Below, piece after piece: positions 22,943-39,995 of a stretch of 64,000 nt of DNA. Made by a program: the position numbers and the translations under genes. This stretch comes from Blautia luti. GTDB taxonomy: Bacteria; Bacillota; Clostridia; Lachnospirales; Lachnospiraceae. Each line of letters begins with the position of its first letter. Position 1 is the stretch's first letter. The notes below the pieces were generated by a model. The model made no database searches, was not told the DNA's origin, and was given only the letters and a program-made list of their open reading frames with translations. The stretch spans positions 2,188,501 through 2,252,500 of the forward strand of contig NZ_AP028156.1 of the NCBI RefSeq assembly GCF_033096465.1, in the 5' to 3' direction.

Positions 22943-25360
22943 CTATTCTACATTCTTCAAAGCTTCATCCATCGGCACTTTCTTTATTTTTCTGAATTCC
23001 AGCAGTGCTACGATTCCATAAGTAATGATTCCTGCCACAAACATCTGTACATAGATCATCGGGTCGATCCATAGTGTGATCCATCCTGAAATACTGGACA
23101 GCATCATCTCACGGAACAGTATATTCATGACTGCTGTCTCAATCGGAAGACTGAGAAGCAGACAGATTATAACTACAGCGGAAGTTGACATAATATAAAG
23201 TCTGCTAATTTCACCGTTTGTATAGCCCAGGATCTTTACCATAGAAATGGACTGGGCGTTTTTCTCAATGATAATCTTAGACAACAGATAGATCAGTACC
23301 ATGTAGATCATGATAGCAAATCCGTTGATCAGACCCATCATGCTTCCCATTGATACATCCAACTGTCTGGAAATCTTTGTCAGAGCATCCAGATCGACTA
23401 CAGAACCGATATACTGATTCTTGATATCTGTAAGCTCTGTATCTGAGAAATAACCGCTGTAGTAGTCATCTCCCAGATCAAAGATATCGTTGAGTTCGCT
23501 TCTCGGCATGAACACGCAGAGTGCAGCTGTATAATCGTAAATTCCCGCTACCCTGAATGAATACTCATCTTTTTCATATTTTTCTTTCAAGGTAATAGTA
23601 TCACCAGTTTTAATCAGGAATTTATCTGCATATGCACTGGAAATATATACGCCTGTGGTATTTTTTCCTGTGTTAATACTATTATTGTCTGTTTTTTCAT
23701 TTATCTCTTCTGTATCAGCACTAACAGCAGAGCCATCCTCATCTGAGCTTTCTTCATTATCAAAGTCTATTTTTACATACTTACTGTTCGGCTCGATGCC
23801 ATAGAACAGTACTTCCTCACTCTTATACTTTCCAGGCAGTGTATTTAAAGAATATGCGGAAAATTTCTCTGCATCTTCATTGTCTGTCTCAGAGTCCATG
23901 TAGAATTCCAGCAATGAGATCAGACTGTCCAATTTATTTCCGCTCACTGCACTGACCGGAACCTGAAGCATATACTGGTATTTCGCCAGCATATTTCCCT
24001 GTATTTCTCCCTGATAATGAGACAGGGCAGATGGAAGCAACAGACCAAACATCAGAAGCAGATTAGCAAAGATGATTCCAATAAACAGGACAATATAGTT
24101 GCTCATGTTCTGGAAAATGACACGCAGACGGAATCTGGAGAATATTTTAATCCTCGAACTTAAATGGACAGCTCTCTTCTGTCTGCGTCCTGACGAAAGA
24201 TCCCTGCGCAGAAATTTCAGAGGAGACAGTTTTAATTTGTGTCTGAGAACTACGTAATTTACGACCAGCATAATGATCACCGGAACTACCGTTGTAAGCA
24301 GAAATGCTTCTGCATTCCAAACGGTCACATAAGTCGGGAGGCTGTAACTTCCATAGTACATAGCTGCACAGATATCTTTAAACACTGTATATCCAAGAAT
24401 ATTTCCAATCAATGCACCAACCAGCGTAACCAGTACCGGAAGTGTCATATAATGCAGAACCAACTCCTGTCTGGTATAGCCGGATGCACGCAGCGTACCG
24501 ATAACACCGGCTTCTTTTCGGATCGTGTTGCTGATGGTGATCCCGAATACAAACGCCATGATCACCATGACAATATAAAGCAGCATAATTACCATAGCCT
24601 TATCACCGCCCATATCATCACCTGTAAAAGTAATCGCCTGATTCAGATACTGTGGTACAAAGGATTCCAGTGTAACAATCTCCCCGATATCCTCCATCAG
24701 GTCCTCGGAGACTTCTTTTTCCTCTTTCTCCGTTTTCGGTTTCTGATCGTATATCCAGGAGTAATTGTACTGCAATTTATCCTGATTCAGAGAATCAAAT
24801 TCTTCTCCGGTTACAACAGAAACGCCAAACTTTACAGAATCAAACATAGAGTCATTATTATTCTGGAACAGGCAGCTATAATCAGAAAGAGCCACCAGAC
24901 CTGTAATCTTCCAGGTCTTTTTGCCGCTTTGAAGTATATCTCCTACAGACAGGCCGTTATTATCTGCATACATTCTGTCAATGGCTATTTCCCCTGTTTT
25001 TACCGGAAGTTCCCCGTCCATCAGGCATACTTTATTGATTTCTTCTCTGTTTTTGAAAATACGCATGGTGCTTCCATTATCCAGAGGTTCTTCCAGGTAA
25101 AAGTTGTCATACAGCTTTACGCCCAGCTTTTCAATCTCTTCCCTCTGTGTTTTGTAAATCTGTTCTACGGTGCGGAAATTTCCGTCTTCGATGTTGTATT
25201 TCTCGAATCCCTCATTGTAGGCAGTGATCATACTTCCATCTGCTACAAGGAAACCGGACACAAAACCTATGGTCGCTACCATCAGGATAAATACTACCAG
25301 GTACTTTCCGATCTCAATCTTTAACTCTCGCGGCAAACGCTTTCTTAAAGGACTTTTCAT
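22943..25360 (-). CDS. ABC transporter permease, FtsX/MacB type with two FtsX domains
   Basis: 805 residues: one N-terminal helix, a large extracytoplasmic domain (about 45-250), three helices of a first FtsX domain, a basic cytoplasmic linker, a further helix and a second extracytoplasmic domain (about 430-650, with an acidic insertion), and three C-terminal helices of a second FtsX domain. This arrangement is that of BceB/MacB-like exporters of peptides or lipids in Firmicutes. It is coupled to the ATPase gene 14 nt upstream. Substrate unknown. Confidence 0.93.
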   Translation of the reverse strand: MKSPLRKRLPRELKIEIGKYLVVFILMVATIGFVSGFLVADGSMITAYNEGFEKYNIEDGNFRTVEQIYKTQREEIEKLGVKLYDNFYLEEPLDNGSTMRIFKNREEINKVCLMDGELPVKTGEIAIDRMYADNNGLSVGDILQSGKKTWKITGLVALSDYSCLFQNNNDSMFDSVKFGVSVVTGEEFDSLNQDKLQYNYSWIYDQKPKTEKEEKEVSEDLMEDIGEIVTLESFVPQYLNQAITFTGDDMGGDKAMVIMLLYIVMVIMAFVFGITISNTIRKEAGVIGTLRASGYTRQELVLHYMTLPVLVTLVGALIGNILGYTVFKDICAAMYYGSYSLPTYVTVWNAEAFLLTTVVPVIIMLVVNYVVLRHKLKLSPLKFLRRDLSSGRRQKRAVHLSSRIKIFSRFRLRVIFQNMSNYIVLFIGIIFANLLLMFGLLLPSALSHYQGEIQGNMLAKYQYMLQVPVSAVSGNKLDSLISLLEFYMDSETDNEDAEKFSAYSLNTLPGKYKSEEVLFYGIEPNSKYVKIDFDNEESSDEDGSAVSADTEEINEKTDNNSINTGKNTTGVYISSAYADKFLIKTGDTITLKEKYEKDEYSFRVAGIYDYTAALCVFMPRSELNDIFDLGDDYYSGYFSDTELTDIKNQYIGSVVDLDALTKISRQLDVSMGSMMGLINGFAIMIYMVLIYLLSKIIIEKNAQSISMVKILGYTNGEISRLYIMSTSAVVIICLLLSLPIETAVMNILFREMMLSSISGWITLWIDPMIYVQMFVAGIITYGIVALLEFRKIKKVPMDEALKNVE

Positions 25361-25374
25361 CTCTTCATCCTCCT

Positions 25375-26073
25375 TTACCAGTCAAGCTCTGCAGCAGGAA
25401 TTTTGTGTTCGTTGATGTAATTCTTACGGATCATGCCATCTCGAAGTTTCACTACCCGGTCTGCCATGTCTTTAATGGCATCATTATGCGTTACCATAAC
25501 AATCGTATTGCCATATTTCTGGTTTACCGTCTCGATCAGTTTCAGAATTTCCTTGGAAGTATTATAATCCAACGCTCCTGTAGGCTCATCACACAACAAA
25601 ATATCCGGATTCTTCACAATCGCCCTGCCAATCGCAGTTCTCTGCTGCTGACCACCGGAGAGCTGGTTCGGAAGTTTTCTCTGATGTTCATAAATCCCCA
25701 ATGTATGCAGCAATTCATCCACATCCAGCGGTTTATCACTGAGATACGCACCGACTTCTATATTCTCACGTACTGTAAGATTCGGAATCAGATTATACAT
25801 CTGAAAAATGTAGCCAAGATGCTTACGCCTGTACAAAGATAACTTCTTCTCCGACATATCCGCCAGGCGTTCCCCATCTATAATCAGATTCCCCTCATCT
25901 GCGCTGTCAATCCCACCAATAATATTCAACAACGTAGACTTACCCGAACCAGACGGTCCCAAAAGAACACAAAACTCTCCTCTCTCTATTTCAAGATCCA
26001 GACCTTTCAGTACATCCACACGACTGTCACCCACACCAAAAGACTTCTTAATGCCCTGTATCTGCAAAAACAT
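25375..26073 (-). CDS. ABC transporter ATPase (MacB/LolD type)
   Basis: 232 residues with Walker A GPSGSGKST, Q-loop, signature LSGGQQQR, Walker B LLCDEPTGALD and the switch His in VTHND. This is the LolD/MacB subfamily that powers FtsX-type permeases. Its leader contains an inverted-repeat operator and half of a mobile repeat. No regulator gene is next to it. Confidence 0.96.
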   Translation of the reverse strand: MFLQIQGIKKSFGVGDSRVDVLKGLDLEIERGEFCVLLGPSGSGKSTLLNIIGGIDSADEGNLIIDGERLADMSEKKLSLYRRKHLGYIFQMYNLIPNLTVRENIEVGAYLSDKPLDVDELLHTLGIYEHQRKLPNQLSGGQQQRTAIGRAIVKNPDILLCDEPTGALDYNTSKEILKLIETVNQKYGNTIVMVTHNDAIKDMADRVVKLRDGMIRKNYINEHKIPAAELDW

Positions 26074-26454: not shown

Positions 26455-26503
26455 ACAAAAAAGACAGTCACACTATATACTTGATATAGTAGAAACTGTC
26501 TTT
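26455..26503 (-). terminator. Terminator of the peptidase-transporter-reductase operon
   Basis: Nested stem AAAGACAGT and ACTATAT with their complements, followed on the minus strand by a T-run, 14 nt after the reductase stop codon. The rest of the 26253-26454 gap holds only a small hairpin (AGAAAGCATTG at 26325-26355). Confidence 0.8.
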
Positions 26504-26516
26504 CTCTCACTTATTC

Positions 26517-28802
26517 TTAATGTCTGACTTCCACAAACTTAGCCCTGTTCATCAACGGATGTACCAGCTTGATTGCATCTTTCGGGCAGACCATGACGCA
26601 GGCACCGCAGTAATAGCACTCACCCGGATACATAATGATCGGATGTTTTCCTTTTTCCGGTGATGGGAGCAGGATGTCGCACTGACAAACATTTGCGCAG
26701 CGGTTACATCCAATACACTTGCTTTCATCATACTTCAGCGGATTTGTACTGCAAGGTACCGGCTCTACTTCAAAGCTGGCTTTTGCATCTCCAGGTTCCT
26801 GCTCTTCCTCCTGAACCTTCGCAGCAGTCACATATTTCTCCGCACGGTCCGGTGTCTGTGCTTCTTCTGTAATATAATCCTGGTTTCGCTTCTCATACTC
26901 ATCTTTCAGCTTGCCAAAGAAGTTCAGCGGAACAATTCTTGTCACTGCCTGACCATTCTCCTGATGGATCACGATATGCTTACGATCTTCTACAGAATCC
27001 ATTTCCGGATAGTCACTTCTGGTAAAGCATAGCGGAGCAGAACTTGACTTACGTGCCAGACATGCATGAAGCACAAGCTGAGCAACTATAAGAATGTCCA
27101 GAACCTCATGGGTACGCATCAGATCATGTGGATTATCTGCAACAAGTTCTGGTACAACGTCTTTCTCAAAACTCTGTAACAGATCCAGTCCCTCTTTTAA
27201 CAGTGCCTCACACTTCACACCACCGCAGTAATTCTGCATAGCCTTGGAAATCGCCATATTCAATTCTTTCCATCCCATGCCGTTCTCTCTGTCCGCATAA
27301 AACGGTGCATATAAACGCTTCTTCTCTGCATCCGCATCTGCTCTGTTAAAATCTGCCAGCTCTACTGTCTTTGCATAAGCAGAAGCCTTACGTCCTGCAT
27401 AATATCCAGTCGCACACGCAAAACCGGCGCAATCAGAAGCATAAAGCTGATCACCAGCTGCATAAATACCGTCAATATTTGTCTTCAGATCCCAGTCATG
27501 CATAATTCCACCCGGTGCACCAAAGAACTGTCTCTCCTGATCCAGAAAGCTTGCGGACTGCCATCCTGTGCCGTAGCTCTGAAGCATATGTTTCTTAGGG
27601 TCAAAGCCTCGCTCTGTATAATTCTGGAAGATTGGAATCTTTGTCTTAGCTTCCTCACCTACCATCATACCCCAGATAACTCTACGCTCTGCATCCGGCA
27701 TACGGCTTAAATCTGCGTAGAACGGAAGCTGATAACCTCGCTTGATCAGCTCAGCAAAATCAACTGTCTCCGGTCCTCTGTATTCATATTTCGGATTGTC
27801 GATCACACCACCCTTTAAGAAGAACTTCTGTCCTTTTGCAGGGTAATATCTCTCGGAAACTGTTTTCAGCTCTTTTCCGTCACGATCTACATATGGGATT
27901 TCCACACCTCTGGCATCTACCATTGTAGCTGCATACCAGGTATTATGGTTATTTCCTGCACCATATGGTGGGAAACTTCTTCCTGCTGCTGAGAACTCTG
28001 CACGGACAGATTTCTCCATCATGGTAAACTCAATTCCGGCTCTCCATCCCATCGCATGACCACTTCCGATACTCTGCATTGGTCTGAACTCGCAAAGTCC
28101 GGTCATATCTGCATTGAAAAGCCATACACGGGCCGGACGTGACATGGTAAGGATCGTGGATTTCGCACGGAAAATATAGAATTTTCCTGTATGTACGTTC
28201 ATACCCATGGCACCTGCACCACGCTTTTTGCCATTTTCTTCTGCTACAAGCAATGCTGTGGCTTCTGTACGGTCCATGATGTTGACGCCAAGACGCTTCA
28301 TTTCTTTTACCAGTGCAGGTTTAAAAGTGGAGCCCCATACACGGATGGTAAATTTATTCTTGTAATCATAAGCAAACATTAGCTTTGTTTTCTCATCGCG
28401 GAATTCTGCTCCCACGAATTCATCCTCTGTGTCACGGATCTTTCCACCAAAAGATTCCAGATCAACAAGACGGTCGTAACCCTCACGGCATTCGATGTAA
28501 TGTGCGATACCATTGCTGTACCAGTCCTGTTCATTGACATAAGCCTCTGCGATTTCTTCAGGTGTTACCTCTGAACATGGATTTGTACACGCAGATTCCC
28601 AGTGGTCAAAACCGGTTCCTGCTGATCCGCTCTTCTCTGTGGCACCTTTCTCTACCAGAGTAACAGAAAGACCTCTTCTTGCCGCAGCAATTGCCGCAAA
28701 ACATCCGGAAAGTCCGCCGCCGAGTACCAGCACGTCACTGGTGATGGTCTCTTCCTGTCCTATTTCATTGGCATATGGCCAGTTAAACTTTTTGTTTTTC
28801 AT
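26517..28802 (-). CDS. FAD-dependent reductase with two C-terminal [4Fe-4S] clusters
   Basis: 761 residues from the fumarate reductase/AprA-like flavoprotein superfamily. A dinucleotide-binding GGGLSG motif lies near residue 30, with a GSGHAMGWRAG segment near 250 and AAGDQLYASDCAGFACATG near 450. A C-terminal capping domain is followed by a ferredoxin module (about 690-750) with CIGCNRCANVC and CYYCGACVMVC, two 4Fe-4S sites. No signal peptide, so it acts in the cytoplasm, probably passing ferredoxin-derived electrons to an organic substrate. Start ATG 28800-28802 has GGAGG nine bases upstream. It is the last gene after a complete peptide-type ABC importer. Substrate unknown. Confidence 0.88.
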   Translation of the reverse strand: MKNKKFNWPYANEIGQEETITSDVLVLGGGLSGCFAAIAAARRGLSVTLVEKGATEKSGSAGTGFDHWESACTNPCSEVTPEEIAEAYVNEQDWYSNGIAHYIECREGYDRLVDLESFGGKIRDTEDEFVGAEFRDEKTKLMFAYDYKNKFTIRVWGSTFKPALVKEMKRLGVNIMDRTEATALLVAEENGKKRGAGAMGMNVHTGKFYIFRAKSTILTMSRPARVWLFNADMTGLCEFRPMQSIGSGHAMGWRAGIEFTMMEKSVRAEFSAAGRSFPPYGAGNNHNTWYAATMVDARGVEIPYVDRDGKELKTVSERYYPAKGQKFFLKGGVIDNPKYEYRGPETVDFAELIKRGYQLPFYADLSRMPDAERRVIWGMMVGEEAKTKIPIFQNYTERGFDPKKHMLQSYGTGWQSASFLDQERQFFGAPGGIMHDWDLKTNIDGIYAAGDQLYASDCAGFACATGYYAGRKASAYAKTVELADFNRADADAEKKRLYAPFYADRENGMGWKELNMAISKAMQNYCGGVKCEALLKEGLDLLQSFEKDVVPELVADNPHDLMRTHEVLDILIVAQLVLHACLARKSSSAPLCFTRSDYPEMDSVEDRKHIVIHQENGQAVTRIVPLNFFGKLKDEYEKRNQDYITEEAQTPDRAEKYVTAAKVQEEEQEPGDAKASFEVEPVPCSTNPLKYDESKCIGCNRCANVCQCDILLPSPEKGKHPIIMYPGECYYCGACVMVCPKDAIKLVHPLMNRAKFVEVRH

Positions 28803-28823
28803 TATCGATTCCTCCATATTTTG

Positions 28824-29777
28824 TTACCCCTGTACCGGACACGCTGAGAAATGTCCCGGTGACACTTCTACAAGTGGCATTTCTCCTGTACGGCAGCTCT
28901 CTTTCGCCAACGGACAGCGGGCTGCGAAACGGCATCCCGGTTTCGGATTGATCGGGCTTGTTACTTCGCCCTGCAGAAGTGTTCTCTTCTTATGACAGGA
29001 TTCAATGCTCGGGATCGGGATTGCAGCCAGAAGAGCCTTTGTATATGGATGTACCGGATTTCGGAAAATCTCCTCTGCCGGCGCTTTCTCAACGCATTTG
29101 CCAAGATACATAACCATGATCTCGTCAGAAATATGCTTTACAACTGAAAGGTCATGGGTAATAAACAGGTAAGTCAGTCCCATCTGTTCCTGCAGATCCA
29201 TAAGAAGATTCAAGATCTGTGCCTGAATCGAAACATCAAGGGCAGATACCGGTTCATCGCAGACGACAAATTCCGGATTCAGTACCAGAGCACGGGCAAC
29301 ACCGATACGCTGACGTCTTCCACCATCCAGCTCATGCGGATAAGCCATTGCCAGACGTTCTGACAGACCTACTGTATCCATGATCTCGCTGACGCGCTCC
29401 TGGATTTCTTTCTTATTTTTGCATACTTTGTTTACAATCAGCGGCTCAGCGATCAGCTGCTGCACTGTCATACGTCCGTTCAGACTGGAGTATGGATCCT
29501 GAAAGATCATCTGCAGCTTCGGACGTACCTGCCGAAATTCCTTTTTGGAAAGATTTGCAATATTTTTCCCTTTAAAATCAATCTCACCGGAGGTTGGCTC
29601 ATAAAGCTGAAGCAGCGTTCTTCCAAGTGTGGATTTTCCGCATCCGGACTCTCCTACCACTCCCATAGTGTGTCCTTGTTCTATGGAAAAGCTGACATCA
29701 TCTACTGCATGGAGCATACCGGCATTTGTCTTAAAATATTTTTTCAGATTTTTGACATTAAGAAGTATTTCACTCAT
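28824..29777 (-). CDS. ABC importer ATPase, DppF/OppF type
   Basis: 317 residues with Walker A GESGCGKSTLGR, a signature loop, Walker B VCDEPVSALDVS and the oligopeptide-transporter C-terminal extension containing Cys residues (CRFAARCPLAKESC) that in this family can bind an Fe-S cluster. The signature reads LDGGRRQR rather than the usual LSGGQRQR, so two positions deviate. It overlaps the partner ATPase gene by 4 nt. Confidence 0.94.
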   Translation of the reverse strand: MSEILLNVKNLKKYFKTNAGMLHAVDDVSFSIEQGHTMGVVGESGCGKSTLGRTLLQLYEPTSGEIDFKGKNIANLSKKEFRQVRPKLQMIFQDPYSSLNGRMTVQQLIAEPLIVNKVCKNKKEIQERVSEIMDTVGLSERLAMAYPHELDGGRRQRIGVARALVLNPEFVVCDEPVSALDVSIQAQILNLLMDLQEQMGLTYLFITHDLSVVKHISDEIMVMYLGKCVEKAPAEEIFRNPVHPYTKALLAAIPIPSIESCHKKRTLLQGEVTSPINPKPGCRFAARCPLAKESCRTGEMPLVEVSPGHFSACPVQG

Positions 29778-30781
29778 TTGCCTGCCTCCTTTGCATTTTC
29801 AGAATTCATTTCCGGAGAAGAAAACAGATGGCATCTGATCTGGTGACCGTCTTTTTCCCATACTTCCGGCTGTTTGTTTTTGCAGAGTTCTGTGCAGTGA
29901 CTGCATCTTGGTGCGAAATTGCATCCTTTTGACAGGTTGGTCGGATCAGGCATCAAGCCTTCGATCGGATGAAGTCTGCGGGCATTTTCCTGAAGATTCG
30001 GGATGGAGCCGAACAGACCTGTTGTATATGGATGATGATTTTCTCCTGTAAAAATATCTTCCAGAGTTCCATACTCTACAATCTCACCGGCATACATAAT
30101 GCCTACTTTGTCGCAAGTTTCTGCCACAACACCAAGATCGTGAGTGATCATAATTACAGATGTGCCGTATTTTCTCTGGAGGTCGCAGATCATAGATAAA
30201 ATCTGTGCCTGAATGGTCACATCAAGAGCTGTGGTCGGTTCATCCGCAATCAGAAGTTTCGGGTTGCAGACAAGTGCGATTGCGATAACTACACGCTGAC
30301 GCATTCCACCGGAAAACTGATATGGATAATCGTTCTTTCGCTCTTTCGGAATACCTACAAGTTCCAGAGTTTCCTCTGTTTTCTTATCTATCTCTTTCTG
30401 GGAAAGTCCCTCTTCGTTGTGAAGATACAGGGCCTCTCCGATCTGGTCACCTACTGTAAGGACAGGGTTTAAAGCTGTCATCGGATCCTGGAAGATCATG
30501 GAAATCTTCTGGCCGCGGATGCGCTCCATCTCACGTTCTTTTAATGTACAGACATTCTGGTTTTCAAAGAGGATCTGGCCTGAAGTAATCCTGGCGGTTC
30601 TTTTCGGCAGAAGTCCCATGATTCCCATGGCTGTGGTTGTTTTTCCGGCACCTGTCTCACCTACCAGACCCATTGTCTCACCCTGTTTCAGGGAAAAACT
30701 GATGCCATTGACTGCATAAACAGTTTCAAGATCTGTCTTATAAATAATGGACAGGTCTTCTACCTTTAAAATTTCTTCCAT
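29774..30781 (-). CDS. ABC importer ATPase, DppD/OppD type
   Basis: 335 residues with Walker A GETGAGKTTT, signature FSGGMRQR, Walker B LIADEPTTALDVT, and the C-terminal Cys cluster (CNFAPRCSHCTELC). Works as a heterodimer with the DppF-type ATPase encoded next. Sits 20 nt downstream of the permease gene. Confidence 0.95.
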   Translation of the reverse strand: MEEILKVEDLSIIYKTDLETVYAVNGISFSLKQGETMGLVGETGAGKTTTAMGIMGLLPKRTARITSGQILFENQNVCTLKEREMERIRGQKISMIFQDPMTALNPVLTVGDQIGEALYLHNEEGLSQKEIDKKTEETLELVGIPKERKNDYPYQFSGGMRQRVVIAIALVCNPKLLIADEPTTALDVTIQAQILSMICDLQRKYGTSVIMITHDLGVVAETCDKVGIMYAGEIVEYGTLEDIFTGENHHPYTTGLFGSIPNLQENARRLHPIEGLMPDPTNLSKGCNFAPRCSHCTELCKNKQPEVWEKDGHQIRCHLFSSPEMNSENAKEAGK

Positions 30782-30801
30782 ATTAATCAGTATCTCCCTT
30801 C

Positions 30802-31662
30802 TTAGTCTTTCAGTTTCGGATCCAGGGCATCTGTCAGTCCGTCACCTACCAGGTTAAAAGCAAGGGAGGATAACAGGATAAACATACCCGGGAAAAGCAG
30901 CATATACGGTGCAGAAAACAGATAAGTCTGGGCATTAGAAAGCAGTGCCCCCCATTCCGGTGACGGCGGCTGGATACCCATTCCGATAAAGCTCAGTCCT
31001 GCTGCAGAGAGCATCATATCTGAAATACTCATGGTTGTATTTACAATGATCGGTCCCATTGCATTCGGCAGTACATAACGAAAAATAATTCTCGCATTGG
31101 AGGTTCCGTAGGATTTCGCTGCCTCTACGTAATCCTGCTCTGCGGTTGTCAGGACTACCGAACGGATCAGTCGGACATTTCCCGGAATACAGGAAACGGT
31201 AATCGCAATGATCAGATTTCGTAAGTTTGTTCCCAGGGCTGCTACCACTGCCAGGGAAAGGAGGATTGGAGGCACGCACATGAATACGTCCATGATACGG
31301 CTGATCACATTATCAACAACTCCACCGAAATATCCGGCACTTGCACCAAGGATTGCACCGACTACCAGTGCCATCAGACTGGTCGCAAGTCCGATCAGCA
31401 GAGAATATCTGGAACCGTGAACGATTCGTGCAAAGAGGTCTCGTCCCAGTTCGTCTGTTCCAAAGAAATGTTTCAGGCTCGGTCCCTGAAGACGGTCGGC
31501 ACCAACCTGTTCAATACATTTGCTATAAGGTACGATCAGGTCTGCAAATACTGCCATTCCAATGATCAGTACCAGCAGAACCAGTCCCAGAACAGCTGCT
31601 TTGTTCTTGCGGAAACGACGCCAGAATTCTGAAAGCTGGGCATGTTTTTTTCTTCTATTCAT
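30802..31662 (-). CDS. ABC importer permease, DppC type
   Basis: 286 residues with an N-terminal helix, the OppC N-terminal region (FRKNKAAVLGL), five further helices and the EAA-type loop EAAKSYGTSNARIIFRYVLPN. The start at 31660-31662 is preceded by GGAGG and overlaps the upstream permease by 8 nt; a longer reading is possible but lies in that gene. Confidence 0.94.
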   Translation of the reverse strand: MNRRKKHAQLSEFWRRFRKNKAAVLGLVLLVLIIGMAVFADLIVPYSKCIEQVGADRLQGPSLKHFFGTDELGRDLFARIVHGSRYSLLIGLATSLMALVVGAILGASAGYFGGVVDNVISRIMDVFMCVPPILLSLAVVAALGTNLRNLIIAITVSCIPGNVRLIRSVVLTTAEQDYVEAAKSYGTSNARIIFRYVLPNAMGPIIVNTTMSISDMMLSAAGLSFIGMGIQPPSPEWGALLSNAQTYLFSAPYMLLFPGMFILLSSLAFNLVGDGLTDALDPKLKD

Positions 31663-32605
31663 GATGCTTTCCTCCATTCTGATATTTCGCCTTAATTCTT
31701 GGATCAATAAACGCATATAAAATATCTACAAGCAAGATGACAAAGCTGAAAAGCACTGCCAGGAATAAAGTTGCTCCCATAACCATCGGAATATCTTTCT
31801 GGCGGATCGCAGTTGTCATCAAAGTTCCCATTCCAGGCATTGCAAAAACGGTCTCCGCAATGATCGCACCACCCAGAGATGCACCAAAACCAGTTCCCAA
31901 TGCTGTTACAACCGGAAGAAGTGCGTTTCTCAGCGCATGTTTCCAGATCACACGTTTGCTGGAAGCACCTTTTGCCTTGGCTGTGCGGATATATTCCTGA
32001 CGGATGGTTTCCAGCATGGCTGATCTGGTCAGTCGTAGAAGTCCTGCTGCCGAGGTCAGCGAAACCGTCAGTGTCGGCAGAATAAAATGTTTCAACGAAG
32101 CAGCTCCGAATGATGGGAACCATCCAAGCTTTAAGGAAAATACGATCAGCAGCATCAGTCCAAGCCAGAATCCAGGCATGGATGCAAAAACCAGCGCAAC
32201 AACTACGCATACATGGTCTGTGATGGAATACTGGCGTACTGCGGAAAGGATTCCCAGTGAGATTCCGATAATGGAGGAAACACACATGGAAAGCAGTGCC
32301 AGGATAAATGTGTTCGGAAATCTTGCCAGGATATCGTTGATCACCGGCTGACGGGAAGCATAGGAAGTTCCCAGGTCAAAATGAAAAATAATATTTCCGA
32401 TGTAACTAAAGAATCGGATAAGAAACGACTTATCATAGCCAAACTGCGCATTCAGCGCAGCAACGTCTTCCGGTTTGGCGGTAATTCCCAGAATGATCGT
32501 TCCCGGATCACCAGGTGTCAGGGAAAGGATGGTAAATACCAGAAATGCTACGCCGAAAAGAACCGGTATCATATATAAAATTCTCTTAATTATGTACTTA
32601 GCCAT
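31655..32605 (-). CDS. ABC importer permease, DppB type
   Basis: 316 residues with six helices. It starts MAKYIIKRILYMIPVLFGV, as usual for DppB/OppB, and has the EAA loop RTAKAKGASSKRVIWKHALRN. Forms the channel with the DppC-type protein. Confidence 0.95.
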   Translation of the reverse strand: MAKYIIKRILYMIPVLFGVAFLVFTILSLTPGDPGTIILGITAKPEDVAALNAQFGYDKSFLIRFFSYIGNIIFHFDLGTSYASRQPVINDILARFPNTFILALLSMCVSSIIGISLGILSAVRQYSITDHVCVVVALVFASMPGFWLGLMLLIVFSLKLGWFPSFGAASLKHFILPTLTVSLTSAAGLLRLTRSAMLETIRQEYIRTAKAKGASSKRVIWKHALRNALLPVVTALGTGFGASLGGAIIAETVFAMPGMGTLMTTAIRQKDIPMVMGATLFLAVLFSFVILLVDILYAFIDPRIKAKYQNGGKHHE

Positions 32606-32638
32606 ATGGACAATGTGCCCCTTTCATATTGCATATCA

Positions 32639-32724
32639 TAAAAGACTGCTGCAGCAAGCATTTTCATGAACTCACTCACGCTTTCGGGTAAGTCATGTCT
32701 ATTGCTTAATGCAACAGTCCTTTT
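32639..32724 (-). terminator. Large imperfect hairpin between binding protein and permease genes
   Basis: AAAGACTGCTGCAGCAAGCA and the nearly complementary TTGCTTAATGCAACAGTCCTTT enclose a second small stem. With the GCCC-ACC-GGGC hairpin and T-run at 32791-32818 just after the binding-protein stop, it can reduce read-through so that the binding protein is made in excess. Confidence 0.5.
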
Positions 32725-32790
32725 GTTTATTCATCTGGTTCAGTCAAATTCAGTTATCTTATCTCTTTTTTATAACTCATTTTGTACTGT

Positions 32791-32818
32791 AAAAAGAATC
32801 CTGCCCGGTGGGCTTTTT
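32791..32818 (-). terminator. Short hairpin after the substrate-binding protein gene
   Basis: GCCC-GGT-GGGC core (32803-32813) between AAAAAG and CTTTTT, 16 nt after the stop codon. Likely a partial terminator. Confidence 0.5.
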
Positions 32819-32833
32819 ATATAAAAAATCAGT

Positions 32834-34342
32834 TTATGCCCAGTTGAAATCATATACGTAGTAGTTTCCTTCAAATGGGAACTCTTCCGGGCATGTAAGT
32901 TCTGCGTTGTATGCATACAGGGTAAGAGGATTGCAGAGAACTGCATAAATTGCCTCGTCCTGTGCTTTTGTAAAAATCTGGTCAAAGATCTCAAGTCTCT
33001 TATCGTTGTCTGTCTCTGCTCTTGCTTCATCGAACAGTTTATCCATCTCTTCATCAGAATATCTTGCATTGTTTGCAGTTCCGATGTAATCAGATGTAAA
33101 TGCCATTTCAAGACTCTGTGTGTCGCCGTCCAATGTCATTGTCAGAGCTGTGATACCATAGTTTCCGCTTGTCAGATCACTGATGTAAGAGTTGAATTCT
33201 TTAACAGAAATTTCCATTTCAAGGCCAACTGCTTTCAGGTCATTCTGGATAACAGTTGCAAGATTGGAATATTTCTCTGCTACAAGGATCTCGCCCAGAT
33301 CATATGGTGTTTCGATTCCCGCCTCTGCAAGAAGTTCTTTTGCTTTATCAGGATCATAAGTGTACTGCGGCTGATCATCAGAATATCCAAATCTTTCTTT
33401 TGCGCAGATATTGGAGTTTACTTCTGCTTCACCATCGTAGCATACAGAAACGAGGTTATCTCTGTCGATAGCGTAGTTAATTGCCTGACGGACTTTCTCA
33501 TTATTGAATGGCTTTTTTTCAAGATTCATGGATACATAAGCGAATCCGGAATTCTCTACTTCTGCGATTTTGATCGCTGAGTTTGCCTGAAGCTGTGGAA
33601 GTACGGAAGAATCAACCTCTGCAAAGTTTACCTCTCCTGTCTGGAGTGCGATTGCCTTTGTAGCTGCATCCGGGATTACTTCAAATGTAAGGTTCTTGAT
33701 CTCCGGTGCTCCGCGGTAGTAATCTTCGTTTGCTTCCAGAGTAATGTTACTTCCTGTTGCACGGCTTACAAATTTATATGGGCCACTTCCGATCGGATTT
33801 GTAGCAAATGCATCTTCATCTTTCTCATAGTATGCTTTCTCGCAAATGTAAGGAGTCAGAACACCCTGCAGGAATGGTGCATATGGAGTATCCAGATGAC
33901 ATACAACTGTCTTATCATCTGTTGCTTCAACACTTGACAGCATGGAAATCTGTGATCCCTGATATTCAGACTGTTTGAACAGTTCCAGGGAGAATACAAC
34001 ATCATCTGCTGTTACTGCAGCTCCGTCGTGGAATTTTGCATCATCTCTTAAATGGAAAGTATAATCCAGACCATCTTCGCTGACCTCATAACTCTCAGCA
34101 ATTCTTGGTTCCGGGTCATGTTTTCCATCCGGGTTATAGTACATTAAGGTGTCGTAAATCTGGTTTAAGACATCCTGCTCTACGCCTGTGGAATAATTAG
34201 TTGCATGAAGTGTATCGATGTCCGCATCAAGAGCAATAACAAGATCAGTCTTGTCTGCTGCGTGTGCAACGGTTGCAAAACACATGGACGCTGTCACTGT
34301 GCATACAGCTGTTAAAATTGCAAGGGCTTTTTTCATTCTCAT
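32834..34342 (-). CDS. ABC importer substrate-binding protein, family 5
   Basis: 502 residues of the DppA/OppA (SBP family 5) type. A signal peptide ends near VAHA-ADKT. Family motifs are YDTLMYYNPDGKHDPEPRIAES (about 65-85) and YTFHLRDDAKFHDGAAVTADDVVFS (about 95-118). There is no Cys at the expected lipoprotein position, only one inside the signal sequence, so anchoring to the membrane is unclear. It would capture a peptide or peptide-like compound for the DppBCDF-type genes downstream. Confidence 0.93.
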   Translation of the reverse strand: MRMKKALAILTAVCTVTASMCFATVAHAADKTDLVIALDADIDTLHATNYSTGVEQDVLNQIYDTLMYYNPDGKHDPEPRIAESYEVSEDGLDYTFHLRDDAKFHDGAAVTADDVVFSLELFKQSEYQGSQISMLSSVEATDDKTVVCHLDTPYAPFLQGVLTPYICEKAYYEKDEDAFATNPIGSGPYKFVSRATGSNITLEANEDYYRGAPEIKNLTFEVIPDAATKAIALQTGEVNFAEVDSSVLPQLQANSAIKIAEVENSGFAYVSMNLEKKPFNNEKVRQAINYAIDRDNLVSVCYDGEAEVNSNICAKERFGYSDDQPQYTYDPDKAKELLAEAGIETPYDLGEILVAEKYSNLATVIQNDLKAVGLEMEISVKEFNSYISDLTSGNYGITALTMTLDGDTQSLEMAFTSDYIGTANNARYSDEEMDKLFDEARAETDNDKRLEIFDQIFTKAQDEAIYAVLCNPLTLYAYNAELTCPEEFPFEGNYYVYDFNWA

Positions 34343-34592
34343 ATTCTTGGTCCTCTTTCTTTTTATGCCGGTTTGTAAGTTGCTTATTTTAAGACAGGAC
34401 TTAAACGGGTTTCTTTACTTTCCCTGTCTGAATTTCTCGCTTTACAGATTCATAAGCTGATTCAATCAGATATTCTGCTTGTCTCATCTCTTTTTATATT
34501 CGCATCAGGAATTTCGTTTGATTCAAGTCAAGCGGATAAAATCATCCGTTTCGCTACCTGCTCATAACTGAATAACTGCTCCGCAGTTTCGG

Positions 34593-35606
34593 TTAAAATT
34601 TAAACGTATATTTGGAAAATGCATTCATCAGATCTACACCGGCTTCAATATCTTTCTTGGAAGCTACAGCACTCTGACAGTGTGGATATCTGGTGACTAC
34701 TACGATTCCGCCTGTACGCACACCATAATGGGACTGATTCATGCTGGAAGCATCTGTACCACCCTGGTCAATAACCTCTCTCTGGTATGGAATGTGATTC
34801 TCTTCGCAGCACTTGTACATTGCTTCTACTACATCTTCATCACATACAACTGACGGGTCGCAGATCTTAACGCCGATTCCACCGTCCACTTCGTTGCTTC
34901 CCTCCAAGTCACACGGATAATCATGTGCCGGGGAAATGTCTACTGCGATTCCGATATCCGGCTGGATTCTCTCTGCTGCTGTCTTGGAACCACGGCATCC
35001 TAACTCTTCCTGTACGCAGAATACATAATAAATATCATTTGGATAAGTTCCGTCATTCTCTTTTAAGGCTTCCAGAAGCTGGTAGCATCCGATTCTGTTG
35101 TCAAGGCTCTTAGAACATACACGGTCATTGTGAAGTTCCAGATATTCTCCGCGATATCCGCATGGATCACCGAGATTTACATATTTCAGTGCATCTTCCT
35201 TTGATGTAGCTCCGATGTCGATATAAAGTTTGCCGGCTTTGTTGGCAGCTTCTTCGATTGATCCCATACAGCTTACTACGCCGATTGTTCCGTTCTTAAA
35301 CTGTACTCTGCTGTTGTATGCAGATCCTGTCCAGTTCCATCCCAGATTGCAGACACGTAATCTTCCGTCTGCCTCAATGGTCTTTACCATAAATCCGATT
35401 TCATCCATATGCGCTGCATACATGATCTTCTTGGAATCCGGTCCACCTGTACCGTTCTTCTTAACGATCAGGTTTCCCATTGCATCTGTCAGCATTTCGT
35501 CAGCATAAGGAGCGGCCTCTTTCTCAATATATTTGCGTACCTCTTTCTCATATCCGGATACGCCCCAGAGCTGTGTAAGCTCTTTTAACAGTTTTTCATC
35601 TCTCAT
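34593..35606 (-). CDS. M42 family metallopeptidase
   Basis: 337-residue cytoplasmic di-metal aminopeptidase of the FrvX/PepA (M42) family. Metal and catalytic residues are visible: His and Asp in AAHMDEIG, the bridging Asp in SLDNRIG, the Glu pair in CVQEELGCRG, Asp in AVDISPAHD, and the His near the C-terminus in RYPHCQSA. First gene of the transporter-reductase operon with a consensus promoter. It probably trims the peptide brought in by the importer. A 250 nt gap with no gene separates it from the binding-protein gene. Confidence 0.93.
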   Translation of the reverse strand: MRDEKLLKELTQLWGVSGYEKEVRKYIEKEAAPYADEMLTDAMGNLIVKKNGTGGPDSKKIMYAAHMDEIGFMVKTIEADGRLRVCNLGWNWTGSAYNSRVQFKNGTIGVVSCMGSIEEAANKAGKLYIDIGATSKEDALKYVNLGDPCGYRGEYLELHNDRVCSKSLDNRIGCYQLLEALKENDGTYPNDIYYVFCVQEELGCRGSKTAAERIQPDIGIAVDISPAHDYPCDLEGSNEVDGGIGVKICDPSVVCDEDVVEAMYKCCEENHIPYQREVIDQGGTDASSMNQSHYGVRTGGIVVVTRYPHCQSAVASKKDIEAGVDLMNAFSKYTFKF

Positions 35607-35731
35607 CTGATCACCCCGGTTGTCTTATTTGTCACTGTTCACTTTCCCATCGTTCGCAGTAACTCTTATTTTTCTAAGCTTGTTTTTAATCGCCTTAACG
35701 CGTTGTCCCATTAAAGTTTTAAATTGTAATT

Positions 35732-35760
35732 AGTGTACCACTTTCGATGAATTTTTGCAA
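35732..35760 (-). promoter_or_regulatory. Promoter of the M42/transporter/reductase operon
   Basis: Minus-strand TTGCAA (35755-35760), 17 nt spacer, TACACT (35732-35737). It runs away from the GntR gene. Confidence 0.7.
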
Positions 35761-35772
35761 TATGCATTTTGC

Positions 35773-35784
35773 ATTTTGCAAAAT
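35773..35784. promoter_or_regulatory. Candidate GntR operator between divergent promoters
   Basis: ATTTTGCAAAAT is a perfect 12 bp palindrome preceded by two further TGCATTTTGCA-like half repeats (35760-35784). It sits exactly between the two -35 boxes. Confidence 0.5.
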
Positions 35785-35793
35785 ATAAAATCC

Positions 35794-35822
35794 TTGACTT
35801 TTATGCTTTTGAACTATATCAT
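35794..35822 (+). promoter_or_regulatory. Probable promoter of the GntR regulator
   Basis: TTGACT (35794-35799), 17 nt spacer, TATCAT (35817-35822). The transcript would carry a 320 nt leader that contains the second copy of the GTTACTG repeat. Confidence 0.55.
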
Positions 35823-35886
35823 TACAAATAATATATAAGAATAAGTCGGTTCTTACTTCTCCTGTTCATCAGGTAAAGTTATTCTT

Positions 35887-36090
35887 GTTACTGTCTGCTC
35901 TGTGTTCAATAACATACTTTACAGGGCAAAAAAAATGTGAACCATCTCGTGATAAACTCAAGGAGTATTGTTTGCTTCGCAAACCTAATTTATGTCTCAA
36001 TCATAAATTCAAATCCGTACAATATATTTCGGGATTTTGGCATATTCATGCCAAATCACCTTACGGGATAGTAGCATGTGAATAAATAAC
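35887..36090. repeat. 204 bp GTTACTG-ended repeat, diverged copy
   Basis: Aligns along its length with 22624-22821, with shared AAGGAGTAT, GTTTGCTTCGCAAAC hairpin, TAATTTATG and CATAAATTC blocks, then TCGGGATTTT, CACCTTACGGGATA. The left end GTTACTGT is kept; the right end is eroded. It fills most of the gap between the M42 and GntR genes. A shorter related piece is at about 35628-35655. Confidence 0.7.
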
Positions 36091-36144
36091 TTATCTCTAC
36101 TTAAAAACGAAAATCTACTATATTATAATTATAAGGAGTCTACC

Positions 36145-36813
36145 ATGGCATTAAATAAATCAACCTTATCCGAGCAAATTTACCAGATTCTCCGCTCTGA
36201 TATCCTGCATCAGAGAATCCCTCTGGGTGAAAAATTAACGCTTAAAAATCTCCAGGCGCAGTTTGAAGTCAGCTCCACTCCTATTCGCGAGGCACTTACC
36301 CGCCTTACAGAAGATGGTCTGGTTCGCTATTATTCTAATATCGGAGTAAATGTAATTGAATTATCGAAGCAGGATCTGACAGAGCTTTATCAGTTCATGG
36401 GCGATCTGGACCGGCTTGCGATTCTTTACAGTGGAAATTCTCCTGAGCATGAACAGATCTGTAAGATATTAGAAGATAATATCTGCCATACCCTGAAACT
36501 GGAAGAAAAAGCCCAGCAGTCGCCTCTTTCCAAAGAAGAAACTGAGAAATGGATTAACTATTCTGACCATTTTCATTTAATCTTCTACGATTATTGTGCA
36601 AACAGCCGCCTGACACTGGCAGCTGAAAAGCTTCGCAGTCAGCTTACGATCTTTTCTAATTTATATGAAACGCAGGCGGAATCTCAGCATAATATCGGGC
36701 AGATGCATAAGCAGATCTTTGAAGCGTATAAAAATGGAGAAATCACCAAAGCCGGAGATCTGATGAAACAGCATCTGGAAGATTCCCTGCAGTATGCTCT
36801 GTCCTGTCTGTAA
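36145..36813 (+). CDS. GntR-family regulator with FCD domain
   Basis: 222 residues. The N-terminal winged helix (about 8-72) has IYQILRSDILHQRIPLGEKL and STPIREALTRLTEDGLV. The C-terminal all-helical FCD ligand domain (about 82-215) keeps the metal-binding histidines in HFHLIFYDYC and the QMHKQIFEAYKNGE helix. It is divergent from the peptidase/importer/reductase operon and is the obvious candidate to control it in response to a small metabolite. Confidence 0.93.
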   Translation: MALNKSTLSEQIYQILRSDILHQRIPLGEKLTLKNLQAQFEVSSTPIREALTRLTEDGLVRYYSNIGVNVIELSKQDLTELYQFMGDLDRLAILYSGNSPEHEQICKILEDNICHTLKLEEKAQQSPLSKEETEKWINYSDHFHLIFYDYCANSRLTLAAEKLRSQLTIFSNLYETQAESQHNIGQMHKQIFEAYKNGEITKAGDLMKQHLEDSLQYALSCL

Positions 36814-37193: not shown

Positions 37194-38420
37194 ATGAATC
37201 TAGTCAGAAAAATATATTGCAGGGCTTTTCAAAAAGCTTTTCACATTGCTATTCCATTTTTGCCTTACCGCAAACCGAAAATCGCAGGAAGTGTCAAAGA
37301 ACTTCCGGAGATCATTATGCGTCACAAATGTACACACGTACTGATCATTACAGATGCAGGAATTGCCAGACTCAGACTTACCAGACGTCTGGAAAAAGCC
37401 CTGAAAGAGGCAGGTATCCCATATACCATGTATGACAAAACAGTTGCCAACCCTACTACTGTAAATGTCCAGGAAGCACTGGATCTCTATCATGAGAACG
37501 GATGTGACGTGATCATCGGTTTTGGCGGCGGTTCCAGTATGGACTGTGCCAAAGCTGTCGGTGCACGTGCAGTAAAACCAAAACAATCTCTGGCTCAGAT
37601 GAAAGGAATCCTGAAAGTATACAAAAAACTGCCGCTTCTCATCGCAGTTCCGACCACTGCTGGTACAGGAAGTGAAACTACTCTCGCCGCTGTCATTACC
37701 GATGCGGATACCAGATATAAATATGCGATCAATGACTTTCCGCTGATCCCGCGCTATGCAGTCCTGGACCCGAAAGTTACCTTAAGCCTTCCGCCTTTTA
37801 TCACCGCCACTACAGGTATGGATGCACTGACTCACGCAGTGGAAGCATATATCGGAAATTCCACAACCATTGATACACGTAAAGACGCTTTAAAGGCTGT
37901 AAAGCTGATTTTTGAGAACATTTATACTGTTCATGACCAGGGCGATAATATTCATGCCAGACGAAATATGCTCCATGCTTCTTTCTATGCCGGCTGTGCT
38001 TTTACCAAATCTTATGTAGGATACGTACATGCAGTTGCACATTCACTTGGAGGAGAATATAATATTCCTCATGGACTTGCCAATGCAGTCCTGCTGCCGA
38101 TGGTGCTTCGTGAATATGGAAGCTGTATTGACAAAAAGCTCCACAACCTGGCTGTTTCTGCCGGAGTTGCTGATAAAAGCATTCCGGATCATGAGGCAGC
38201 AGAACTTTTTATCCAGGCAATTGAAGAAATGAAAGAGAAATTTGGAATTGGAAATACTGTAAAAGAAATTCAGGAAACTGATATTCCGAAACTGGCACAT
38301 TATGCAGATAAAGAAGCAAATCCATTGTATCCAGTGCCGAAACTGATGGATGCTTCTGAACTTGAGAAATTCTATTACATGCTGATTCCTGCAGAAAATA
38401 ATTCAGAAATTGCTTGCTAG
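37194..38420 (+). CDS. Iron-containing alcohol dehydrogenase
   Basis: 408 residues of the group III Fe-ADH family; reduces aldehydes or oxidises alcohols with NAD(P)H. Cofactor loop GFGGGSSMDCAKAVG (about 103-117), PTTAGTGSETT (about 152-162), and metal ligands in GMDALTHAVEAYIG and HAVAHSLGGEYNIPHGLANA are all present. It is followed by an aldehyde dehydrogenase, so the pair may convert an acid or acyl group to an alcohol or the reverse. The stop codon TAG lies in the first bases of a repeat element. Confidence 0.95.
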   Translation: MNLVRKIYCRAFQKAFHIAIPFLPYRKPKIAGSVKELPEIIMRHKCTHVLIITDAGIARLRLTRRLEKALKEAGIPYTMYDKTVANPTTVNVQEALDLYHENGCDVIIGFGGGSSMDCAKAVGARAVKPKQSLAQMKGILKVYKKLPLLIAVPTTAGTGSETTLAAVITDADTRYKYAINDFPLIPRYAVLDPKVTLSLPPFITATTGMDALTHAVEAYIGNSTTIDTRKDALKAVKLIFENIYTVHDQGDNIHARRNMLHASFYAGCAFTKSYVGYVHAVAHSLGGEYNIPHGLANAVLLPMVLREYGSCIDKKLHNLAVSAGVADKSIPDHEAAELFIQAIEEMKEKFGIGNTVKEIQETDIPKLAHYADKEANPLYPVPKLMDASELEKFYYMLIPAENNSEIAC

Positions 38421-38581
38421 TACATCGAAAATTAAGTATCTGCTATATTGACGCCGGATGATTTTCTCATATGCAAGGCGGAGAAATGAGGCGTAGCGGT
38501 GGCTACGGCGATTGACGACAACGCGGCATATGAAAAATCAGACAAGTCAACATGGCGATTACTTAATATTCGATGTACTAG
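38417..38581. mobile_element. 165 bp palindromic MITE-like element
   Basis: The left arm (38417-38474, starting CTAGTACATCGAAAATTAAG) is matched at about 80-85% by the reverse complement of the right arm (38526-38581, ending CGATGTACTAG). The 50 bp centre includes GCGTAGCGGTGGCTACGGC and GACGACAACGCG. It has no gene. Another half copy is at 26134-26184. Its first bases overlap the alcohol dehydrogenase stop codon. Confidence 0.75.
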
Positions 38582-38615
38582 TATTCCAACTTTGATGATA
38601 AGGAGAGTTTGTTCT

Positions 38616-39995
38616 ATGACAGAAACAGAAATCAAAGAAATCGTCCAGAAACAACGCAGTTATTTCTATACAGATGCTACTTTACCGGTAGAAAAAAGGC
38701 TGGAAGCTTTAAAGAAATTAAGGGTCTGTATTCAGAAATATGAGCCGCTTATCAATGAAGCCCTGAAACGTGATCTGGGAAAAAGTAATTTTGAGTCTTA
38801 TATGTGTGAAGTAGGTCTTGTACTCTCAGAACTCAGCTACATGATCCGCCACACCCCATCTTATGCAAAAGAAAAGACTGTACTGACTCCAATCGCTCAG
38901 TTCGCTTCCAGAAGTTACAAAAAACCATCTCCTTACGGTGTGGTTCTGGTCATGAGCCCATGGAATTATCCTTTCCTGCTCACAATCGATCCGCTGGTAG
39001 ATGCCATTGCCGCCGGAAATACAGTTGTACTGAAACCAAGTGCGTACTCACCGAATACAAGCCGTGTGATCGAATCTATCATCGACGAATGCTTTGATCC
39101 GCATTATGTAGCAGTCGTAAATGGTGGACGTGCAGAGAACACTTCTCTGCTTAATGAACATTTTGACTATATCTTTTTCACCGGAAGCCAACACGTAGGT
39201 CGTGAAGTAATGGCAAAAGCCTCTGCACACCTGACTCCTGTTACCCTCGAACTCGGCGGAAAAAGCCCATGTATTGTAGAGAAAAGCGCCAACCTGAAAC
39301 TGGCTGCCAGACGAATTGTATTTGGAAAGTATCTCAACTGCGGACAGACCTGTGTTGCACCGGATTATATTTACTGCGACAAAGAAATCAAGGATGAACT
39401 GATCCGTCAAATTCAGAAACAAATAAAAAAACAGTTTGGTTCTACCCCTCTGAATAACAAAAATTACGGAAAAATCATTAATGAGAAACACTTCTCGCGC
39501 ATCCATAACCTGATCGATCCGAACAAAGTTGTCTGTGGCGGTGACAGCAATCCAGGTACTCTGCAGATTGCACCTACTGTAATGGATCACGTCACTTTCC
39601 AGGATGCTGTCATGCAGGAAGAAATCTTTGGCCCGGTACTTCCAATACTGACTTATGATTCACTGGATGAAGCTATTGTGAACGTTAATTCCATGGCACA
39701 TCCGCTGGCCTTATACATCTTTACTTCCAATAAAGAAGTTGCTGAAAAAGTAACCTCCCACTGCGGTTTCGGCGGTGGCTGTGTAAATGATACTATCATT
39801 CATCTGGCTACCAGTGAGATGGGATTTGGAGGCTTCGGAGAAAGCGGTATGGGATCCTACCATGGAAAAGATGGCTTCAATACTTTCTCTCATTACAAGA
39901 GTATTGTAGACAAAAAAACATGGCTAGACCTCCCGATGAGATACCAGCCATATAGAAAAGTTTATGAAAAACTGCTTAGAAAGTTCCTGAAATAA
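38616..39995 (+). CDS. Aldehyde dehydrogenase, class 3-like
   Basis: 459 residues, short form typical of fatty-aldehyde/class 3 enzymes. It has MSPWNYPF near residue 112, the NAD-binding FFTGSQHVG, catalytic Glu in LELGGKSP (about 210), catalytic Cys in NCGQTCVAPDY (about 244), and EEIFGPVLP. ATG 38616 follows AAGGAG; an in-frame extension to 38499 would run through the repeat element and is rejected. Oxidises an aldehyde with NAD(P). Confidence 0.95.
   Translation: MTETEIKEIVQKQRSYFYTDATLPVEKRLEALKKLRVCIQKYEPLINEALKRDLGKSNFESYMCEVGLVLSELSYMIRHTPSYAKEKTVLTPIAQFASRSYKKPSPYGVVLVMSPWNYPFLLTIDPLVDAIAAGNTVVLKPSAYSPNTSRVIESIIDECFDPHYVAVVNGGRAENTSLLNEHFDYIFFTGSQHVGREVMAKASAHLTPVTLELGGKSPCIVEKSANLKLAARRIVFGKYLNCGQTCVAPDYIYCDKEIKDELIRQIQKQIKKQFGSTPLNNKNYGKIINEKHFSRIHNLIDPNKVVCGGDSNPGTLQIAPTVMDHVTFQDAVMQEEIFGPVLPILTYDSLDEAIVNVNSMAHPLALYIFTSNKEVAEKVTSHCGFGGGCVNDTIIHLATSEMGFGGFGESGMGSYHGKDGFNTFSHYKSIVDKKTWLDLPMRYQPYRKVYEKLLRKFLK

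Follow-up and report, generated by a model that had tools for sequence, protein, structure and literature searches.

What does a flavoprotein with ferredoxin clusters do at the end of a peptide importer operon? The question is raised by a stretch of 64,000 nucleotides of Blautia luti (NCBI RefSeq assembly GCF_033096465.1, contig NZ_AP028156.1, positions 2,188,501 to 2,252,500; hereafter the window), which belongs to a genome of one contig of 3.74 Mb. Opposite a gene for an FCD-GntR regulator, it carries seven minus-strand genes for an M42 aminopeptidase, a family-5 solute-binding protein (SBP), two permeases, two ATPases and a flavin adenine dinucleotide (FAD) flavoprotein to which a two-[4Fe-4S] ferredoxin is fused. 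An initial annotation, made from the letters alone, had described this arrangement, and the coordinates, strands and Pfam domains of all eight open reading frames (ORFs) agreed with it (Table 1). Comparison with relatives identified the genes as a recurrent regulated unit in gut Clostridia with an exchangeable uptake module. The most likely reading, which we hold tentatively, is that of an inducible unit that would import a small peptide, cleave it with the M42 enzyme and reduce the product at the flavoprotein via the two clusters.

Evidence for a common switch came from the gap between the GntR and M42 genes. The sequence TTTTGCAAAATGCA occurred with zero mismatches only once in the 3.74 Mb of the own genome, in this gap. 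The 9-mer ATTTTGCAA was present in 30 of 33 GntR-flanked intergenic regions versus 18 of 639 other intergenic regions, and 10 of these 18 precede an M42, symporter or flavoprotein gene. Some of the 33 regions are near-duplicates or come from close relatives, so that they are not independent, and two precede HypE and not the flavoprotein. When the 33 regions were plainly shuffled 20 times, the top 9-mer count never exceeded 6. Of 33 carrier genomes, 14 contained a 22-base form of the operator with at most one mismatch; the reversed control matched in 0 of 33. The sites of 13 genomes precede a unit by coordinates; that of G202 lies on a short contig, beside a GntR gene that shares 56% identity with that of the window. 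With two mismatches, the own genome gave 112 matches versus 29 in the reversed control, and weaker sites are possible. A palindromic near-match at G000:C1:2345169 was rejected as an operator because it falls within a coding ORF.

The second half-site of the operator doubles as the −35 box of a promoter-like layout, whose hexamers hold 8 of 12 consensus letters by our own count. A TTGC-type −35 box at the half-site, followed by 17 bp and a −10 box, was found in 16 of 30 operator regions, including that of the window. The strict promoter pattern matches 18 of the 30, lying off the half-site in L038 and L040, and some regions are shortened by gene calls. A simple promoter scan gave no minus-strand promoter before the M42 gene, its count being that of chance (27 found, 26.5 expected); the terminator hairpin behind the flavoprotein gene was likewise missing from the simple scan's list. 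The initial annotation had claimed one promoter and one terminator for the seven genes. The terminator hairpin was found and the promoter-like layout emerged by comparison; a single promoter may serve the whole unit. Internal promoters or attenuation could, however, be accommodated in the wide gaps between the M42 and SBP genes (250 bp) and between the SBP and first permease genes (228 bp, containing a short GC hairpin). GntR bound to the operator would be expected to block RNA polymerase.

To describe the relatives, a protein search at E ≤ 0.001 was used, which gave at least 2728 proteins among 7997 scored candidates, distant relatives included; 80 of 126 named loci were kept. Genes were called from codon usage and are uncurated, carrier labels were assigned by script, and the trees were made by a quick maximum-likelihood method that leaves many forks weak. 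Carriage of the unit is patchy. With the own genome counted each time, the flavoprotein was present in 18 of 397 genomes of the family sample (15 of these at ≥60% identity), 6 of 392 of the order sample (two distant), 6 of 60 of the genus sample and 9 of 371 of the class sample (one distant). Of 89 tree rows, 8 have flavoprotein and ferredoxin fused, as in the window, and 81 have them split.

Neighbours were counted in the 59 of 92 distinct loci that have at least 3.5 kb on either side; the counts omit the relatives of 26–42% identity (L108–L112, L240), L118 and four duplicates, and keep L117. In this last locus (G205:C47) the flavoprotein frame is in several pieces, by assembly error or decay. 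M42 (≥50% identity) was found in 30 of the 59 loci, two or more of the genes for binding protein, DppB and DppC (≥25%) in 32, and a GntR relative in 30. Others carry a sodium symporter (12), an amino acid permease (3) or an MFS carrier (2). The initial annotation had proposed to check the co-occurrence of the reductase with M42 and Dpp genes across relatives; M42 and the peptide-type importer genes are each seen in about half of the loci, with the importer often exchanged. Any of the four carrier types (peptide-type ATP-binding cassette (ABC) importer, symporter, permease, MFS) is present in 47 loci. None of 19 other regions held an M42, a permease or a binding protein like those of the unit, and 4 gave ATPase matches only; these regions (7 HypD loci, 5 distant flavoprotein loci and 7 pieces of the own genome) were hand-picked, 8–18 kb long and not size-matched.

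Carriers beside the flavoprotein are of the SSS, APC, MFS, Liv-type ABC and peptide-type ABC kinds, and the carrier type switches at least 10 times across 66 labelled tree rows, which omit six distant or long ones. A symporter adjoins the flavoprotein in L114. On a deeper branch, L233 has flavoprotein, ferredoxin and M42 followed by a Liv-type ABC importer, and L234 resembles it, judged from the first residues of its proteins. Because the carriers vary in this way, we regard flavoprotein, ferredoxin, switch and often M42 as the core and the importer as a plug-in. That relatives retain the enzyme and the switch while exchanging the importer suggests an undescribed use of amino acids, perhaps for electron disposal.

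Sequence profile and predicted fold both place the flavoprotein nearest to (P)APS reductase, and not to urocanate reductase, in a fold-level comparison that barely covers the ferredoxin part; identity to PAPS reductase along the structural alignment is 24%. It has the AprAB architecture, a FAD alpha part of the fumarate reductase family and a beta part with two [4Fe-4S] clusters. Of 56 alignment rows, 26 include the ferredoxin domain, and these conserve its two complete CX2CX2CX3C motifs (C701/704/707/711 and C734/737/740/744); 70 of 74 separate ferredoxin ORFs of relatives carry two such motifs. The initial annotation had called the protein AprA/fumarate-reductase-like; the likeness to (P)APS reductase stands at the level of profile and fold. 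Against NCBIfam aprA (TIGR02061) it scored 94.6 bits at a cut-off of 641.75. In place of the histidine which we take to be catalytic in the AprA alpha subunit, the alignment has Q420, where the own-genome AprA-like protein of locus L108 has His. Over 56 rows this column holds Q 46, T 4, H 3 and K 2 times, H belonging to L108 and two distant relatives by this alignment, and window residues 412–439 contain no histidine. The VNAxNAY-type stretch near the FAD of (P)APS reductases is DHW here, in 55 of 56 rows. No sulfate activation or transport gene was found by a scan of the seven genes and GntR. True AprA membership was therefore rejected on cut-off, catalytic His and sulfate gene context. The best fumarate reductase/succinate dehydrogenase match reached 166.5 bits at a cut-off of 587. 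The histidine for covalent FAD, presumably placed in the first third of fumarate reductase, is absent by alignment: the stretch reads KSGSAGTG, without His at window residues 62–70, and S63 and G64 are invariant in 56 of 56 rows. In respiratory reductases of the urocanate type, the FAD domain is accompanied by one that binds FMN or heme, and neither was found in the flavoprotein by Pfam scan (E ≤ 0.001).

As to what is imported, the importer has an SBP_bac_5 protein, two BPD_transp_1 permeases and two ABC_tran ATPases with oligo_HPY. The binding protein is NikA/DppA-like, yet stays under the listed NCBIfam cut-offs, and AgaA, dipeptide-binding and heme-binding proteins score about equally in comparison, with no ligand singled out. 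Peptides are favoured over nickel, opines and others because M42 and other peptidases are present. The M42 protein scores 255.3 bits against a Pfam cut-off of 23.2, its nearest solved structures are M42 aminopeptidases, and it is the one strong M42 match of the own genome, a second being weak and partial. Other loci add further peptidases: an M29 and an aminopeptidase-P-type M24 by domain scan in L080, with similar proteins in L081 and L082, a PepQ-like M24 in L079 (155.7 bits versus a cut-off of 630), an M20 in L236 and an M14 in L077. An amidohydrolase was present in 9 loci of the first clustering, in 7 of them between M42 and binding protein; its best NCBIfam match is Xaa-Pro dipeptidase, far under the cut-off (73 versus 500 bits). 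No remnant of it was found in the 250-bp gap of the window.

In the Emergencia-type loci L037 and L038, a paralogous GntR gene and the 9-mer precede genes for HypE, HypD, an M18 aminopeptidase and ProC. The paralogous GntR of L037 is 60% identical to the one adjoining the flavoprotein, and its HypD scores 1438 bits versus a cut-off of 1100. L038 and L080 lie on one contig (JAETRU010000014.1) within about 40 kb that hold two flavoprotein units, a Dpp importer, M42, M29, M24, M18, HypDE and ProC, a stretch that resembles an island for imino-acid-containing peptides. Together, the extra peptidases and the Emergencia-type HypD neighbourhood point to peptides of proline or hydroxyproline, which we treat as a lead only. 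A glycyl radical enzyme in L058, whose activase lies 2.9 kb from GntR, is a 4-hydroxyphenylacetate decarboxylase and was not taken as linked. PF09338, the selenium-type Stickland reductase family, occurs in 5 of 33 carrier genomes and is missing from 28 (0 of 22 carriers from the family, genus and order samples, 5 of 11 from the named loci); these counts cover carriers alone and say nothing on enrichment.

According to the import-and-reduction reading, GntR without ligand would occupy the palindromes, which are centred on TTGCAA and cover the −35 box, and repress the unit, and a ligand would release it. The regulator has the N-terminal GntR helix-turn-helix and the C-terminal FCD domain of its family. 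The DppBCDF/SBP_5 importer would then take up a small peptide and the M42 aminopeptidase would split it. The (P)APS-reductase-like flavoprotein would bind a freed amino acid, or a compound derived from one, at its FAD. Reduced ferredoxin or NADH would supply two electrons, which would pass over the two [4Fe-4S] clusters to this substrate, and its reduction would dispose of reducing equivalents. Relatives whose carrier is a sodium symporter, an amino acid permease or a Liv-type ABC importer might take up the free compound instead, with enzyme and switch unchanged. The genes, switch and co-conservation fit the initial annotation's suggestion of a cleaved peptide whose product serves as electron sink; repression, substrate class and direction are what we infer from the genes, domains, operator, promoter layout, terminator and co-conservation seen in the sequence. 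In a narrower form, which seems quite doubtful, the flavoprotein would be a selenium-free flavin/Fe-S amino (imino) acid reductase: a (P)APS-reductase fold remade to act on an amino acid from the peptide, which would most likely belong to the proline/hydroxyproline group. It would serve gut Clostridia as an electron sink, with a plug-in importer and one GntR switch.

Several observations weigh against the proline lead. HypD was rejected as a general partner, as it is present in 2 of 18 flavoprotein matches versus 36 of 397 family genomes. Other HypD genes lack both an operator of this type immediately upstream and a close GntR: in 37 HypD stretches of 30 genomes (30 short loci and 7 longer ones from the same genomes), 8 contain the 9-mer, 6 of these within the HypD gene and 2 more than 1 kb upstream. 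In the own genome no HypD was found. Among the relatives of the unit, the importer or M42 is often missing or replaced. This last point, like the breadth of SBP_5 importers and M42 peptidases, would suit a general peptide-nutrition operon in which the flavoprotein has a side function, such as keeping redox balance with a keto or enoic acid, unconnected to the imported peptide. We consider this unlikely, since the association recurs with varied carriers and a like regulator and operator, which is hard to explain without a shared ligand.

The reaction might also run in the oxidative direction. The flavoprotein would then be a dehydrogenase for amino (imino) acids, of L-aspartate-oxidase type, which would let the unit feed on amino acids and hand the electrons to some acceptor. 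This explanation seems rather improbable, no more so than the side function: profile and fold both put (P)APS reductases nearest, and amino acid oxidation is thermodynamically too uphill with a low-potential ferredoxin as acceptor. Least probable is the reduction of a sulfur-oxygen bond (in a sulfonate, sulfoxide or S-sulfo amino acid) by a FAD-N5 adduct, as proposed for (P)APS reductase, to scavenge sulfur from peptides, given Q420 and DHW in place of the presumed histidine and the VNAxNAY-type stretch, a separate AprA-like protein beside CysN/CysD-like genes in the same genome, and no sulfur genes among the neighbours scanned, which are a minority of all neighbours.

Distant relatives bear on the electron donor. 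In L109–L111 (34–36% identity), two NADH-dehydrogenase-type genes stand beside the flavoprotein-ferredoxin pair; those scanned in L110 encode a NuoF-like protein and one with 2Fe-2S and Fe-hydrogenase-type domains. TRAP-type carrier genes are present in L110 and L111 (DctM by scan in L111). These neighbours suggest that NADH can feed such enzymes, and the three loci are perhaps an NADH-linked version for other substrates. At G000:C1:3355000-3367000 (L108), the own genome has a second AprA-like flavoprotein of 600 amino acids with a 105-codon ferredoxin frame, and its neighbours are a CysN-like GTPase, a CysD-like protein with a PAPS_reduct domain and an ABC importer whose binding protein is of the SBP_bac_11 kind. 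This locus probably serves sulfate assimilation via an APS-reductase-type enzyme in this gut Blautia.

Among known systems, the PAPS reductase of Methanothermococcus thermolithotrophicus and AprAB come nearest. The published account gives them a fumarate-reductase-family FAD subunit and a ferredoxin-like beta subunit with two [4Fe-4S] clusters and eight cysteines (PMC10322725). The window protein shares this subunit plan and has them as top profile and structural match. It differs in its DHW motif, the missing histidine and the fusion of alpha and beta parts, and its unit stands in a peptide/amino acid context without sulfate activation genes. UrdA, through which urocanate reportedly serves bacteria as electron acceptor, and the flavocytochrome c fumarate reductases have a related FAD fold. 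Eggerthella lenta has a digoxin reductase, Cgr2, that depends on flavin and [4Fe-4S]; it is predicted to be a secreted protein that receives electrons from the heme protein Cgr1, whereas the window protein carries a two-cluster ferredoxin domain of its own. The collagen imino acid is a precursor for reductive Stickland metabolism in gut Clostridia via the HypD/ProC pathway (PMC9044972). This hydroxyproline pathway adjoins the unit in the Emergencia-type loci; unlike the unit, it consists of a glycyl radical dehydratase and P5C reductase, without a flavoprotein, and the two show no tendency to co-occur in the family sample. Riboflavin breakdown in Lachnospiraceae, as outlined in a preprint, uses a different gene set. 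The SBP-DppBCDF genes and peptidase of the window resemble Dpp/Opp importer operons with peptidases; in contrast to these, the flavoprotein is the better conserved part here. Dpp/Opp operons are not known to end in an Fe-S flavoprotein.

The features are collected in Table 1. The start of the DppC gene as listed overlaps DppB, and a later start is likely; the flavoprotein may start five codons downstream, as judged from the alignment. Past the terminator, on the same strand (22943–26073), genes for an ABC ATPase and an 805-amino-acid permease-like protein were recognized by eye; because the terminator lies between, they form a separate unit. Downstream of GntR, on the plus strand (37194–39995), lie genes that by eye resemble iron-type alcohol dehydrogenase and aldehyde dehydrogenase.

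Table 1. Coordinates of the features of the unit in the window (aa, amino acids)
Feature	Position	Strand	Basis or remark
FCD-GntR regulator, 222 aa	36145..36813	+	GntR 1.1e-16, FCD 1.1e-12
Putative operator, overlapping palindromes TTTTGCAATATGCATTTTGCATTTTGCAAAA	35753..35783		in front of M42 gene; comparison with relatives
Putative promoter, −35 TTGCAA (35760-35755) in operator, 17 bp, −10 TACACT (35737-35732)	35732..35760	-	layout in relatives
M42 aminopeptidase, operon gene 1, 337 aa	34593..35606	-	PF05343 7.9e-76
Family-5 solute-binding protein, 502 aa	32834..34342	-	SBP_bac_5 4.4e-90
Short GC hairpin behind binding-protein gene, possible partial terminator, weak	~32803..32813	-	
DppB-type permease	31655..32605	-	BPD_transp_1 1.6e-44
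DppC-type permease	30802..31716	-	BPD_transp_1 + OppC_N
DppD-type ATPase	29774..30781	-	ABC_tran + oligo_HPY
DppF-type ATPase	28824..29777	-	ABC_tran + oligo_HPY
FAD flavoprotein fused to two-[4Fe-4S] ferredoxin, 766 aa	26517..28817	-	FAD_binding_2 + Succ_DH_flav_C + Fer4
Ferredoxin part of flavoprotein, residues ~690-754	26553..26750	-	Fer4 / Fer4_7
Intrinsic terminator, 50-base hairpin, −20.8 kcal/mol, T run	26457..26506	-	after flavoprotein gene

No description of this unit was found in the titles and abstracts listed by one open-licence library, and other literature may contain one. Each part belongs to a known kind, and within these titles and abstracts neither the combination nor the flavoprotein subfamily was found described. 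If the import-and-reduction reading holds, a (P)APS-reductase-like enzyme would have been recruited to amino acid metabolism in gut Firmicutes. An electron acceptor would then be hidden under the annotation fumarate/succinate flavoprotein, and the potential for fumarate respiration or sulfate reduction may have been miscounted in metagenomes. The conserved operator and the exchanged importers turn this into a testable question, as the ligand that releases GntR would lead to the substrate.

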